DNA of 64,000 nucleotides, taken from Phycisphaerales bacterium. GTDB taxonomy: Bacteria; Planctomycetota; Phycisphaerae; Phycisphaerales; UBA1924. The DNA lies in the NCBI GenBank assembly GCA_030149165.1, contig JASBRY010000005.1, forward strand, positions 1-64,000, in the 5' to 3' direction. A program made the position numbers and the translations under genes. The notes under the pieces were generated by a model, which made no database searches, was not told where the DNA came from, and worked only from the letters and a program-made list of their open reading frames with translations. Every line of letters starts with the position of its first letter. Position 1 is the first letter of the stretch. This document shows positions 2,392 to 19,391 of this stretch, piece after piece.

Positions 2392-2853
2392 TTAAGCCGC
2401 AGATTCGCCCGCGGAATCCTCGGTATCCATATGCAGCTCTGGGGATGGCCAATCCGCATTGTCGATCAGATCCATCGCGCGATCATGCTCATCAAAGCGG
2501 AACACACAGACCGGACCATCAATGCCCTCTGCGCCTGGAATCAGGTAGCAGTAGCGGATGTTGATGCGATTGTCCGCCATGAGGACCGACAGGTCACGGA
2601 TCATGCCTGGACGGTTCTCGACGCTGACTCCGATCACTGGAGCTTCGACGATGGGACCGATCCCCGCGTCAACTAGCGACTCACACATCTGGCGTAATGA
2701 CTGCTCAGGTGTGCCGAGCAAACGCACGCACCCGCGGTCCTGATATTCGGTTGTAGAGATCGATGTGATCTCGACTCCTGCGGATTTCGCGGCGTCGAGA
2801 ACGCCCGCGAGTTCGCCGGGGCGCTGCTGAAGATACACACTGAACTCGGACAT
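2392..2853 (-). CDS. Tandem ACT-domain protein
   Basis: MSEFSVYLQQRPGELAGVLDAAKSAGVEI... and VSVENRPGMIRDLSVLMADNRINI: two ACT repeats. Start chosen at the internal Met. Confidence 0.75.
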   Translation of the reverse strand: MSEFSVYLQQRPGELAGVLDAAKSAGVEITSISTTEYQDRGCVRLLGTPEQSLRQMCESLVDAGIGPIVEAPVIGVSVENRPGMIRDLSVLMADNRINIRYCYLIPGAEGIDGPVCVFRFDEHDRAMDLIDNADWPSPELHMDTEDSAGESAA

Positions 2854-3014
2854 TTGTACTCTTTGCATAGGAACCTTGATTCTAGGCACAAACCCCGTTT
2901 CTTTCCCTTCAAACGCTGGAGAAAGACCCATTGTGTGGGCGCCTCAAATGTGATGAGGGGGGACTTCCTATACCTTTCGGATCAATGAAGGGTTCGGATA
3001 TCTGGAAGTTCAAT

Positions 3015-4442
3015 TCAGTTTAAAAGTTCGGATAATGTTTGCTGCCCAATGCTGGATCGAGCCGCCCCCAGAATCGATCCTGGGATCTTCGCACGCGTCT
3101 GATCCCTGAGTCGATCGAGATGTTCTCCCGCGTCCAGCAGCTCCGTCAGATGGATCTGCTCCGCTGGTCGAGCGAGCGTATACGCGGCATCCGCATCCTC
3201 GCCTTGCGAGATCAGGTTGAGCAGGTCAGATTTGTGCAGTGCATTGAGCAGCGTCGCGGCGAGGGAGGGATCGATATCCATCTCTGTTGCGAGCTCATCC
3301 GCTGTCGTTGTGTGTCCTTCCACGAAGCGTTTCCCAATGACCCCACCCACTCCGATGAGGATGAGCGGATCGAGCAGCACAGGGATCGAGCTATCACCCT
3401 CGCCGCTGAGTGTTGCGAGTCCTTTGTTGACCAGTCTGGTGAAGTGCTGGAGTGCGTGTGTTGCTTGCATCCCCAGCAGCACGATGACCCAGGTCACATA
3501 GACCCAGAGCAGGAAGAGCGGGAGGATCGCGAGCGAGCCGTAGAACTTCGTGTATCCAGTCGCGTTGCGGAGGTACATCGTGAACGCGGCTTTCCCGAGC
3601 TCCCACAGGATCGCGGCCATGAACGCTCCAGCGAGCGCAGGACGGATTTTGATCTTGGTGTTCGGGATCGTGAGGAAGGCGACGAGCATCAGGACTGTTG
3701 AGATGAGGACTGAGACCCCGAAGCTCGCGAACATCGCGCCGATGGTACCCCCTTCTCCCGATGCAGAGATGATCCATTTCGCGAGTGTATCTCCAACGAT
3801 GAATGTCGCCGCGAGCAGGAGCGTACCGAGCGTGAGCATCGTCCAGTACAGCATCAATCGGCGCAACCACGGCCGTCCTGACGGCGCGGCGCAGAGCTGA
3901 TTGAACGACTTCTCGATCTCGATGAGCATCGACATCGCGGCATAGATCAGCACGATCAACGACGCGAGCGCGATCCATCCAGTCGGTACATTGCGGATGG
4001 AGGTGTTGACTCGATTGATGAGGTTTGAGATCAGTTCTTCGATATTCGAAGCCGCAGATCCATCCGAATCATCAGTGTTGGTTTGTTGGATGTCTTGTGG
4101 ATTGAGCACTGGTGTTGGATCGACATCCTGCGGTTGTTGATCCTCAATCGGAGCCGTCGAGATTTGTGAGATCCCAGCATAATCCAGCACGCGGCGCACG
4201 CCGGCATCTACTTCGTCTTCAGAAACAAAGGACCCGAAGATGAGCAGACCGATCGCCATGACGGGGATGATCGAGAAGATCGTGCGATACGACATCGCCG
4301 CGGCCATGCGCGGGATCTGCGAGCGGTACAACCCACCGATCCCCAAGCGGGAAACCGCGACGAGCCTATTCCATTCCTCGCGCAAGCGCGATGCCGTCGG
4401 CTCTTGAGGTGGTGTATTGCTCTGAGGTTCTTGTTCGCTCAT
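3015..4442 (-). CDS. YihY/BrkB (ribonuclease BN-like) family membrane protein
   Basis: Multi-TM; AAAMSYRTIFSIIPVMAIG and FYGSLAILPLFLLWVYVTWVIVLLGMQ typical of YihY/BrkB. Confidence 0.82.
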   Translation of the reverse strand: MSEQEPQSNTPPQEPTASRLREEWNRLVAVSRLGIGGLYRSQIPRMAAAMSYRTIFSIIPVMAIGLLIFGSFVSEDEVDAGVRRVLDYAGISQISTAPIEDQQPQDVDPTPVLNPQDIQQTNTDDSDGSAASNIEELISNLINRVNTSIRNVPTGWIALASLIVLIYAAMSMLIEIEKSFNQLCAAPSGRPWLRRLMLYWTMLTLGTLLLAATFIVGDTLAKWIISASGEGGTIGAMFASFGVSVLISTVLMLVAFLTIPNTKIKIRPALAGAFMAAILWELGKAAFTMYLRNATGYTKFYGSLAILPLFLLWVYVTWVIVLLGMQATHALQHFTRLVNKGLATLSGEGDSSIPVLLDPLILIGVGGVIGKRFVEGHTTTADELATEMDIDPSLAATLLNALHKSDLLNLISQGEDADAAYTLARPAEQIHLTELLDAGEHLDRLRDQTRAKIPGSILGAARSSIGQQTLSELLN

Positions 4443-15062: not shown

Positions 15063-17366
15063 TCATCGGAAAAGCGAGAGGATATTCGAATACTGATCCG
15101 TCCAGAGTCGGACTTCAAACATTGGTTCGCCTTGCTGGAACATGCCGGCATCCAAGAGCGCTTGAGCGCTCGTTGTATCCTTGGTCAGCGCGATCCAGAT
15201 AGACGGGAACCAGTATTCTTCCATGTGATCAGGGATCTCATCACGCTGCTGTTCATAGCGCATCACATACGCTTTGTGCTTCTTGCCAAGCTCGAATACC
15301 AATGGCTGGAATCTGAGGTGCCTGTTCGATACATGAAGCAGGATAATCCCATCATCCGTCATCCGATCGAAGTAAAGCTGGATCGCTTCATCAGTCAGCA
15401 GGTGAACAGGGATCGCGTCAGAACTGAACGCGTCGATGAGCACCATGTCGTATGGATCTTCACCGATCCGTCGTTCTTCCTCCAGAAGCAGCCGACCATC
15501 CCCGAGCGCGACATCAACTTTGCACTCGGCATCTGACAAGTAGGTGAAGAACTCGGGATCCTGCGCGATGTGCGCGACCTCCGGATCGATCTCAAAGTAT
15601 CGAATTGTATCGTTTGCTCGCCCGTGCGCCGTGATTGCTCCGGACCCAAGCCCCACGATCCCGATGCGTGCCCCGTCCGGTTTTGTCTCTTTGAGCGCTC
15701 TGATACCCATGCCGCATGGACCATTGATGTGGTAGTACCCAAGCGGCACATCCTTGAATGCATCATCGAGATACTGCACGCCATGATTGGTGGTGCCGTG
15801 CATGATGGTTCGCACCGTCATCATCTGCTCGATTTCCGGATCGTAAAACTTCTCGTCAACAACGCTCAAAACGCCATAGAAAGTTCTGCTCCGATACTGG
15901 ATCCGTGGATCGGTCAGTTTGTCGTATACCGAAGCACTCAACGGCACGGCGAGCACGAGCATGCATGCGAGTCCATCACTCCACGCGAGGTAGATGAGGA
16001 CTGCTGGTACGATCACAATGAATCCGAATAATGCGATCGGACGGTCGCTCGTCGGGATAGGCAATAGATCAATCAAGGATCCGATGAAGAGTCCCATCAG
16101 CACCATGTACAAAACACTGAACAGCGGCAGTCCATAGCGTGTGAGCAGTGCGATCTTCTTGGATTTTCGATCTTTGATCGATCGGATCGATTGCCAGGGA
16201 ATGAGTGAAACCGAGCAGATCAACATGATCTGGTACTCGAGTGTCGTCTCGAAGATCAGCGGAGCGACGATCCCGTTGAACACCCCACCCAATGCGCCGC
16301 CGATCGACATGATCAGATAAAACTCCGTGAGATGCTCTGCTCCCGGTCGATCCTTTGCGAGCAGTCCGTGTCCCGTCAGTCCGACAAGCGCGAGCAGTAT
16401 CAACTGAACCGAAACCAACGCAGGAAGCGGGGCATAGTTCTGAGCCTCTGACGCGAGTACCAATACCGTCGCGGCGATAACCGAAATCACCATCGGACGA
16501 CGGATCACAGCGACAAACTTCTCGGCATCCACCGCGAATGCGATGATCATGGTCAAGAGGTACACCGCGAGCGGCAACACCCAAAGCAACGGAAACGAAG
16601 CGATATCCATCGTGATGTGACTCGTCACCCCCAGCAGCATCGACGAAGGAACGAAGGCATAAAAGACCCAACGCAAACGGCGAGGCCAAGTGATCGGTTG
16701 ATCAGGTGTTTGTGTCTGCTCAGTATCCTCCGGCGGCGCGAGCACCTCAGGTGGTGGAGCATGCGGATCATCCTTCGCGCCTTTTCGAGTCATCAGGATC
16801 GCACCAAAACTCAGCACAATGAAGACCCCGAATCCACTGAGCCATACCTCTCTCTGAGAATCAAGCCCCAGTGTTGGCTCGATCAAGAATGGATACGCAA
16901 GCAGACCAAAGAAACTCCCCGCGTTGCTCGCCGCGTACAGGAAGTATGGATCGTGCGCTTTGCTGTGACCTGTGCGTGCAAACCACCCCTGCACCAGTGG
17001 CCCGGCGCTGGAGATCATAAAGAATGGCAAACCTGAGACGAGAGCAAGCTGAAGAATCAGCCAAGGCACCGGAAAGGTTGTCGCATTGGGAGGTGCTTCG
17101 GGTGTGTCAAAGAGAATCCCCGCAACGAGCGCGATGATCAGCATCGCGATATGTCCCATCAGTTGCATGCGGCGAGAGACACGCTTCATCACAAAGTGCG
17201 CGTACAAATACCCAAGCAGCAGCACAGTCTGGTAGAACAACATACAGGTCGTCCAAACCGAGGAGCTCCCTCCGAATACTGGGAGCAGACTTTTAGCCAC
17301 CATTGGTTGCACTGAGAACAACAGCGTCGCGGAGAGGAATACTGTAAAGACGAAATAGAGAACCAT
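15063..17366 (-). CDS. Fused MFS-like membrane domain/spermidine synthase-like protein
   Basis: N-terminal multi-TM; C-terminal methyltransferase/spermidine synthase fold (GIVGLGSGAITAHGRANDTIRYFEIDPEV, MVLIDAFSSDAIPVHLLT). Confidence 0.87.
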   Translation of the reverse strand: MVLYFVFTVFLSATLLFSVQPMVAKSLLPVFGGSSSVWTTCMLFYQTVLLLGYLYAHFVMKRVSRRMQLMGHIAMLIIALVAGILFDTPEAPPNATTFPVPWLILQLALVSGLPFFMISSAGPLVQGWFARTGHSKAHDPYFLYAASNAGSFFGLLAYPFLIEPTLGLDSQREVWLSGFGVFIVLSFGAILMTRKGAKDDPHAPPPEVLAPPEDTEQTQTPDQPITWPRRLRWVFYAFVPSSMLLGVTSHITMDIASFPLLWVLPLAVYLLTMIIAFAVDAEKFVAVIRRPMVISVIAATVLVLASEAQNYAPLPALVSVQLILLALVGLTGHGLLAKDRPGAEHLTEFYLIMSIGGALGGVFNGIVAPLIFETTLEYQIMLICSVSLIPWQSIRSIKDRKSKKIALLTRYGLPLFSVLYMVLMGLFIGSLIDLLPIPTSDRPIALFGFIVIVPAVLIYLAWSDGLACMLVLAVPLSASVYDKLTDPRIQYRSRTFYGVLSVVDEKFYDPEIEQMMTVRTIMHGTTNHGVQYLDDAFKDVPLGYYHINGPCGMGIRALKETKPDGARIGIVGLGSGAITAHGRANDTIRYFEIDPEVAHIAQDPEFFTYLSDAECKVDVALGDGRLLLEEERRIGEDPYDMVLIDAFSSDAIPVHLLTDEAIQLYFDRMTDDGIILLHVSNRHLRFQPLVFELGKKHKAYVMRYEQQRDEIPDHMEEYWFPSIWIALTKDTTSAQALLDAGMFQQGEPMFEVRLWTDQYSNILSLFR

Positions 17367-17775: not shown

Positions 17776-18174
17776 TCACATCCTGAATCTCGGGAGCAGT
17801 TCCAGCGGGAAAGCGGGTGATGAGATCGGACGCAGCGCCAGCGCCAGCAGCGCAAGCTCGTCGTCGTCTCCCGCGATCCGATTGGTGCGGAGTTGGCTGC
17901 ATCCTGTGCAGCGGTGCACGAGCACCCACTCCCCATCCGAACGCCCCGCGATCGAGATCGGTTCCATCGGTTGCGCGCACGGCGATCTCCGATCACCGAC
18001 TTTGTCATCCACATGCCTCGACCAGAGACAGTGCGGACAGTGGTTGCGTTGATTGGTCCCGTATGCCTGATAGGAGATGTATCCCTTGCAATGGATGCAT
18101 TGGAAACCGCCCTGCTTGTGGGCGTGCTTGTCGTGATGTTTCAACTGTGAATCCTTATCGCACCCGGCGCGCAC
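17776..18174 (-). CDS. RNHCP-domain zinc-binding protein
   Basis: FQCIHCKGYISYQAYGTNQRNHCPHCLWSRHVD...CAQPMEPISI: the RNHCP signature. Confidence 0.8.
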   Translation of the reverse strand: MRAGCDKDSQLKHHDKHAHKQGGFQCIHCKGYISYQAYGTNQRNHCPHCLWSRHVDDKVGDRRSPCAQPMEPISIAGRSDGEWVLVHRCTGCSQLRTNRIAGDDDELALLALALRPISSPAFPLELLPRFRM

Positions 18175-18306: not shown

Positions 18307-18330
18307 AAAAAACCCCAGCAAATGCCGGGG
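18307..18330 (-). terminator. Rho-independent terminator on minus strand
   Basis: CCCCGGCatttGCTGGGGTTTTTT on the minus strand, just downstream of the TPR/alpha-CTD gene. Confidence 0.75.
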
Positions 18331-18354
18331 CTGAGTATTCAGTGTGAGTTCAAC

Positions 18355-19296
18355 TTACTCGTTGTCATCGATCACACGAAGCGACAGACCGAAGTTGGTG
18401 AGCTTCTCGTGGATCTCAACGAGTGAGGTCGAACCAAAGTTTTTGACACCCATCAGTTCAGCTTCGGTGTGTGAGCAAAGGTCACCAATGCTCTGGATAT
18501 TGAGCATCTGGAGCGCTTTACGAGCACGCACAGTGAGCTGGAGCTCTGAGACCGGCTTGGAGAGCAGCTGCTCTTTGCCTGATCCCTTGAGCTTCTCGAG
18601 GATCTGTCGGCGAGCAACACGGTGCGCATCCTCGTGACCCTGACCGAGCTTCAACCCCTTGACCGAGAGCATCCGCTTGATCTCGTCGAGTGAGGACTCT
18701 CCAAAGTTCTTGTAGCTCATGAGTTCCGATTCGTTGATCCGGATCAGGTCGCCAAGCGTACGGATATTCATCTTCTTGAGGCAGGTACGCGCACGAACGG
18801 TCAGTTCGAAGTCCGTCACAGGCGTATCAAGCAATGCGCGACGCTTCATGATGTCCCGCTCGTTCTCTTCCTCGACCATCATGCCCTTAGAGGCAAGCAC
18901 ATCGGTCATGAACAGACGCGCACGAGCGTGGTTTGGGTTCGTGTCCAGAATCTGACGCAAGCAGCGCTCCGCACGCACATAGTCACCCTGATCCTCGTAG
19001 AGGACCGCGAGGTTCATGAGTGCGTTGATCGGCGCTGGCGCGTGCTCGCACACACGCTCGTAGAGCGAGAGTGCTTCTTCTTCATCGCCTTGCAGATCGA
19101 GCTGGTACGCGAGCTTGAACGCAACATCCAGATTCCCTGGATCCGCGGCAAGCGCCGAGCGCAAGGACTCGATGCCCTCGCTGCGGTAACCATCGTTGAG
19201 TTGGGTCAACGCCTGCTCATACAGGTCTTTGGCGTTCTGTGCGTCAGCGGCGGCGGCCGAAGCCCCGACCACCATGTCCATGGGATCGTTGGTCAT
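18355..19296 (-). CDS. TPR protein with two tandem RNA polymerase alpha-subunit C-terminal domains
   Basis: TPR region followed by two copies resembling alpha-CTD: VTDFELTVRARTCLKKMNIRTLGDLIRINESELMSYKNFGESSLDEIK and VSELQLTVRARKALQMLNIQSIGDLCSHTEAELMGVKNFGSTSLVEIHEKL. Confidence 0.9.
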   Translation of the reverse strand: MTNDPMDMVVGASAAAADAQNAKDLYEQALTQLNDGYRSEGIESLRSALAADPGNLDVAFKLAYQLDLQGDEEEALSLYERVCEHAPAPINALMNLAVLYEDQGDYVRAERCLRQILDTNPNHARARLFMTDVLASKGMMVEEENERDIMKRRALLDTPVTDFELTVRARTCLKKMNIRTLGDLIRINESELMSYKNFGESSLDEIKRMLSVKGLKLGQGHEDAHRVARRQILEKLKGSGKEQLLSKPVSELQLTVRARKALQMLNIQSIGDLCSHTEAELMGVKNFGSTSLVEIHEKLTNFGLSLRVIDDNE

Positions 19297-19391
19297 GTGT
19301 TCTCCTGATCAAACAAGCCCGAATGCTCATTCAGGCGGTCGTAAGTCTAGGCCCACAACGGACCAAACGCAAGTCTCAGACACCCAACACA

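Follow-up and report, generated by a model that had tools for sequence, protein, structure and literature searches.

A TPR protein with two tandem RNA polymerase alphaCTDs is a single-copy, essentially universal gene of the Planctomycetota and a candidate transcription factor

The alphaCTD is a domain of RpoA, and two copies of it are present in each RNA polymerase (RNAP). What is the role of a separate protein in which two further alphaCTDs are joined in tandem to a TPR scaffold? Such a protein is encoded in the window analyzed here, a stretch of 64,000 nucleotides from a Phycisphaerales bacterium (contig JASBRY010000005.1), and was described in an earlier note that was made from the sequence alone. 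TPR proteins are built from 34-residue repeats that form a helical superhelix. The gene and the domains of its product are located as follows.

18355..19296, minus strand: whole gene, TPR - alphaCTD (D1) - linker - alphaCTD (D2), 313 aa (open reading frame, Pfam, orthologues, dN/dS)
18889..19230, minus strand: TPR region, residues about 23-136 (Pfam, AlphaFold2 with Foldseek, conservation)
18664..18846, minus strand: D1, first alphaCTD, residues 151-211 (Pfam, residue conservation, fold match)
18565..18639, minus strand: D1-D2 linker, residues 220-244 (poor conservation, 15% mean identity)
18397..18576, minus strand: D2, second alphaCTD, residues 241-300 (residue conservation, fold match)

The 313-residue reading frame begins with an ATG codon. 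The architecture given in the earlier note was confirmed with Pfam, where two stretches of the protein were matched by RNA_pol_A_CTD (PF03118; E 2.6e-39, 133 bits for a cut-off of 23.8). Matches above the gathering cut-off were also obtained for several TPR families. Across 61 diverse members of the phylum, the mean identity was determined to be 70% for D1, 55% for D2, 51% for the TPR adjoining D1 (residues 90-136), which is the best conserved of the repeats, and 15% for the linker. The linker varies from 20 to 34 residues in length across the phylum, and residues 221-235 are predicted by AlphaFold2 to be helical. Members from outside the order of the window are usually 430-480 residues long, with extra TPRs at the N-terminus.

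The protein is not RpoA. The rpoA equivalogs scored 80-131 bits against cut-offs of 228-523 and were aligned over their own C-terminal part alone, and no match to the alphaNTD was found with Pfam or NCBIfam. The alphaNTD is thus absent, as had been stated previously, and the protein cannot dimerize into the RNAP core as alpha does. The genuine rpoA that the earlier note had proposed to look for elsewhere in the genome was located at C10:1061301, in a frame of 334 residues. It is the only further PF03118 match in this genome, and its alphaCTD is canonical except for T298.

The structure of the window protein was predicted with AlphaFold2 using the protein together with 74 orthologues. The model of the whole protein has a pLDDT of 84.9 and a pTM of 0.46, and because of the latter value the relative placement of the domains is uncertain. 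The N-terminal half of the model was matched by Foldseek to the designed TPR protein 1na0 with a TMt of 0.89, in agreement with the Pfam families above cut-off. The D1-D2 fragment was predicted with a pLDDT of 83.8, and all 50 of its best Foldseek matches in the PDB were found to be RNAP alpha chains. The clean single-domain fits to the alphaCTDs of RNAP gave rmsd values of 0.6-0.9 Å. Among the 50 matches are the Caulobacter alphaCTD on A/T-rich DNA (0.6 Å), a complex of the E. coli alphaCTD, CAP and DNA (0.9 Å for the cleanest chain), and a complex of alphaCTD and sigma region 4 on UP DNA. The predicted fold is therefore specifically that of an RNAP alphaCTD, in accord with the significant PF03118 profile match, and the generic HhH fold that the earlier note had named as its possible refutation was not obtained. 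No HhH proteins of DNA repair were found among the best 50 matches, and a generic HhH, SAM or ephrin-SAM identity, to which weak Pfam matches pointed, was ruled out because these were all RNAP alpha.

The residues of the DNA face were compared next to those of E. coli alphaCTD, with an assignment of residues to faces (the 261, 265 and 287 determinants) that we take to hold for these proteins. In the window protein the equivalents of R265, C269, L270, N294, G296, S299, E302, D259 and E261 are all retained in D1, and those of R265, G296, S299 and E302 in D2. R265 corresponds to R168 in D1 and to R257 in D2, and D259 and E261 correspond to D162 and E164. Among the 61 phylum members, R265 and E302 are kept in 61/61 copies of both domains, and N294, G296 and S299 are kept in 61, 61 and 60 copies of D1 and in 59, 59 and 58 copies of D2, respectively. 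The earlier claim that R265, G296, S299 and E302 are preserved in both copies thus extends to near-invariance. C269 is retained in 55/61 copies of D1 and is A or C in D2, and position 297 is E in D1 versus K in E. coli. The entropy of the DNA face was 0.30 bits in D1 and 0.58 bits in D2, compared with 1.29 and 1.78 bits for the remaining positions, and the DNA face is therefore far more conserved than the rest of either domain.

The replacements at N268 and K298 require a different reading from the one first given to them. The substitutions themselves stand, since N268 is T in D1 and K in D2 of the window protein and K298 is S and T, respectively, but they are not departures specific to this protein. 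N268 is present in D1 of 49/61 phylum members, and T at this position is specific to the lineage of the window; in D2 the position is K or R in 57/61. Position 298 was found to be T in 20/20 genuine planctomycete RpoAs, so that K298 does not define an alphaCTD in the Planctomycetota and its replacement by T is no specialization of the TPR protein. N268 is important for DNA binding by the E. coli alphaCTD, and its replacement, by T in the D1 of the lineage of the window and by K or R in D2, may alter the affinity or specificity for DNA.

Within 20 matched genomes, the mean identity of D1 was 69%, against 59% for the alphaCTD of RpoA, and D1 was the more similar in 169 of the 190 genome pairs. 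The mean net charge of D2 is +2.4, versus -0.5 for the RpoA alphaCTD. In a tree of 60 residues, D1, D2 and RpoA formed three groups with supports of 0.99, 0.78 and 0.76 (bar one sequence), respectively; this is consistent with an old duplication, in a tree whose deep branching is unreliable.

The conservation of D1 extends to a second surface. In E. coli, D259 and E261 of the alphaCTD contact R603 of sigma70 (PMC5511352). The acidic equivalents of both residues are retained in D1, and the entropy of the four positions of the 261 determinant was determined to be 0.53 bits in D1 and 1.88 bits in RpoA (20 genomes). The 287 determinant of D1, at 0.88 bits, is less conserved than this sigma-contact patch. 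The arginine equivalent to R603 was present in 30/30 of the primary sigma factors read, all from the class of the window. Since both sides of the contact are kept, we infer that D1 would be able to dock beside sigma. The conservation of the 261 determinant in D1 could instead serve another partner or packing on the TPR.

A full-length or near-full-length orthologue was found in 57/61 near relatives, and orthologues were present in 117/120 genomes of the window's class (some as partial matches), in 241/244 phylum-sampled Planctomycetota genomes, and in 33/33 of the single-contig genomes among those sampled lists. A genome was scored as being without the gene if its best E-value was weaker than 1e-20, with matches only to RpoA or to unrelated TPR proteins, and the genomes so scored are fragmented or incomplete assemblies. 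When 32 other genomes were searched with PF03118, each was found to hold the alphaCTD pair of the TPR protein and an RpoA-sized frame. Collectively, these counts establish a single-copy and essentially universal gene of the Planctomycetota, which is apparently ancestral to the phylum. Between orthologues that are 90% identical, dN is about 0.06 and dS is above 1, which indicates that the gene is under strong purifying selection. A chance or decaying reading frame was ruled out by these values and by the orthologues throughout the phylum. Similar planctomycete proteins probably carry an automatic annotation, as had been noted.

The best 80 loci among the contig matches are all from close relatives; the nearest named relatives are mostly titled Phycisphaerales and are 79-92% identical over the protein. 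Three metagenome-assembled genomes titled Cyanobacteria, Dehalococcoidia and Leptolyngbya (L139, L153 and L166) carry the gene at 62-69% identity and are probably mislabelled or contaminated planctomycetes. Extra frames of 94-155 residues with a single alphaCTD occur sporadically in the phylum (G123, G271, G333 and G367), and three very large frames of 1443-1524 residues that bear an alphaCTD (G247, G313 and G359) are possibly PglW-like. A recent origin from a phage or plasmid was rejected, as 80% coverage of the protein was reached by no such record and the plasmid and phage matches listed are rpoA or short alphaCTD-like stretches. One viral contig (L243, IMGVR_UViG_3300042905_005483) encodes at 2773-3204 on the plus strand a small protein with a single alphaCTD-like domain and the planctomycete D2-type signature KNFGVTSLNE. 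A second contig (L244) gave a match of the same length and identity, and another short alphaCTD-like protein is found in L245 and L247 (159 aa in L245). It is possible that these viral proteins are phage-borne mimics of the alphaCTD.

Three further elements on the same strand were recognized around the reading frame.

19344..19372, minus strand: promoter-like element, TTGCGT-17 nt-TAGACT (sequence reading)
19317..19336, minus strand: 5' leader hairpin GCCTGAATGAGCATTCGGGC, after the predicted transcription start and before the ribosome-binding site
18311..18332, minus strand: intrinsic terminator hairpin, directly 3' of the stop codon

The motif CCTANNNT was present in 12/12 of the Phycisphaerales upstream regions compared. 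The promoter is a reading of the sequences, because a consensus promoter scanner made no call at TTGCGT-17-TAGACT, where the -35 element matches at only 3 of 6 positions. The leader hairpin persists in position, with a changed sequence, in some close relatives and may hint at stabilization or regulation of the mRNA; the terminator hairpin is likewise retained with an altered sequence in relatives of the same genus. The promoter-like motif, the leader hairpin and the terminator suggest a monocistronic unit in the genus of the window, and the promoter-like element and the terminator disfavor its cotranscription with the MATE gene upstream.

The neighbors in the window are genes for a MATE protein, PdxA and chorismate synthase, and in the family of the window the gene often follows pdxA and MATE genes. 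Other lineages have it upstream of spoIID or of tgt-yajC-secD, and in several deep lineages (L114, L115, L118, L121, L123, L127 and L128) it is directly upstream of ruvA or ruvC on the same strand, within the block ruvCAB-queH-spoIID-tgt. This position is ancient and vertically kept, and the ruv adjacency is absent in the order of the window. The block is a common housekeeping cluster, and the adjacency is therefore weak functional evidence. Just 3' of the terminator, an RNHCP-domain protein (PF12647, E 1.4e-35) is encoded at 17776-18174 on the minus strand; the RNHCP family is small and conserved, and its function is unclear. At 15063-17366, also on the minus strand, is a protein of 767 residues with a membrane-like N-terminal half and no Pfam match at 1e-5, the C-terminal half of which presumably resembles spermidine synthase.

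We propose, with a probability of roughly 0.5, that the protein is a housekeeping transcription factor of the whole Planctomycetota, in which a TPR scaffold would provide alphaCTDs in trans that bind DNA and RNAP or sigma. The architecture, predicted fold, conservation, distribution, single-copy state and indications of a separate transcription unit are results of the analysis; what we infer concerns DNA binding, contact with RNAP or sigma, the direction of the regulatory effect and the identity of the TPR partner. D1 and D2 would bind the A/T-rich minor groove as a tethered pair, upstream of -35 elements or elsewhere, and at promoters D1 would dock beside sigma region 4, either alongside the alphaCTDs of RpoA or instead of them. 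A protein partner, either a regulator or a part of RNAP, would be held by the TPR scaffold and thereby be connected to promoter DNA; a tethering of regulators to promoters had been suggested in the earlier note. Counting against a transcription factor, none of the pan-phylum neighbors (ruvCAB, queH, spoIID, tgt, yajC-secDF) is a transcription gene. A more tentative possibility is that of an accessory RNAP component of the whole phylum, with two extra alphaCTDs brought in trans by a TPR dock, where D1 would take the sigma-proximal UP-element position from the more freely evolving alphaCTD of RpoA. Competition with RpoA is possible and is not favored over a cooperative role.

The neighborhood is the starting point of a rather unlikely alternative, a nucleic-acid adaptor outside of transcription initiation, in which the alphaCTDs would recognize structured DNA or RNA and an enzyme of repair, recombination or tRNA modification would be recruited through the TPR. 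An ancestral site beside ruvC-ruvA-ruvB-queH-tgt would mirror such a role, as would the adjacency to ruvA or ruvC in the deep lineages; elsewhere spoIID, tgt, yajC and secD come after the gene, and the alphaCTD contains HhH-like motifs (a weak HHH_5 match). However, the block is generic, and the adjacency is lost in the order of the window, in which the gene appears to be transcribed on its own. In addition, D1 has retained the sigma-contact patch, and the 50 best structural matches were to RNAP alpha and to no repair protein.

The conserved faces admit two other readings, both of which we consider improbable, and to a similar degree. Pairs of free alphaCTDs might act as a decoy that sequesters UP elements and activators (or Spx-like regulators) from RpoA, and the TPR would then serve as the sensor. 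A protein that lacks the NTD cannot assemble into the RNAP core, and the activator- and DNA-facing residues are kept in D1 and D2; universality and slow evolution fit a constitutive role better, however, and in D1 the activator contact of the 287 determinant is less conserved than the sigma patch. Alternatively, the alphaCTDs might be minor-groove binders only, in a nucleoid or promoter-independent DNA-binding scaffold. The DNA face conserved in both domains and the more basic character of D2 relative to the RpoA alphaCTD would suit this role, but the specific conservation of D259 and E261 in D1 would then be needless, and a single-copy gene with one TPR-linked pair per protein does not suggest an abundant architectural protein.

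Both parts of this protein, the TPR and the alphaCTD, were already known. A literature search, in which most subscription journals were beyond reach, found no paper on the TPR-alphaCTD-alphaCTD architecture. New here are the occurrence as a single copy throughout the phylum, a D1 that is more conserved than the RpoA alphaCTD, the sigma-contact patch and the corrected reading of K298 and N268. An apparently ancestral single-copy protein that bears two additional alphaCTDs, of which one surpasses that of RpoA in conservation, suggests an extra basal component of promoter recognition or activation in the Planctomycetota. For work on this question, genetic methods and a saturated transposon library are available in Planctopirus limnophila (PMC10632474).

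Among known systems, RpoA shares with this protein the alphaCTD fold and the residues R265, N294, G296, S299 and E302, as well as D259 and E261 in D1, but the TPR-alphaCTD protein has two tandem CTDs per chain and a TPR in place of the alphaNTD. Residues 140-224 align with an alphaCTD-like stretch of the BREX kinase PglW (NF033442/PDLC02512); the PglW models, however, are about 1400 residues long and include a kinase, no kinase match was found in the 313-residue protein and no pgl genes were found among its neighbors, and a defense-system reading was rejected because the PglW match is only partial. Small stand-alone alphaCTD proteins (PRK07758/NF005841) also have an alphaCTD without the NTD, but they have a single CTD, lack the TPR and are sporadic. 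Among TPR-containing transcription regulators, AfsR is described as SARP-NOD-TPR and as activating transcription via its SARP domain (PMC10936776). AfsR and the planctomycete protein are alike in the fusion of a TPR to a module that acts on RNAP, and they differ in that module, which is a SARP domain in AfsR and the alphaCTD copies in the TPR-alphaCTD protein.
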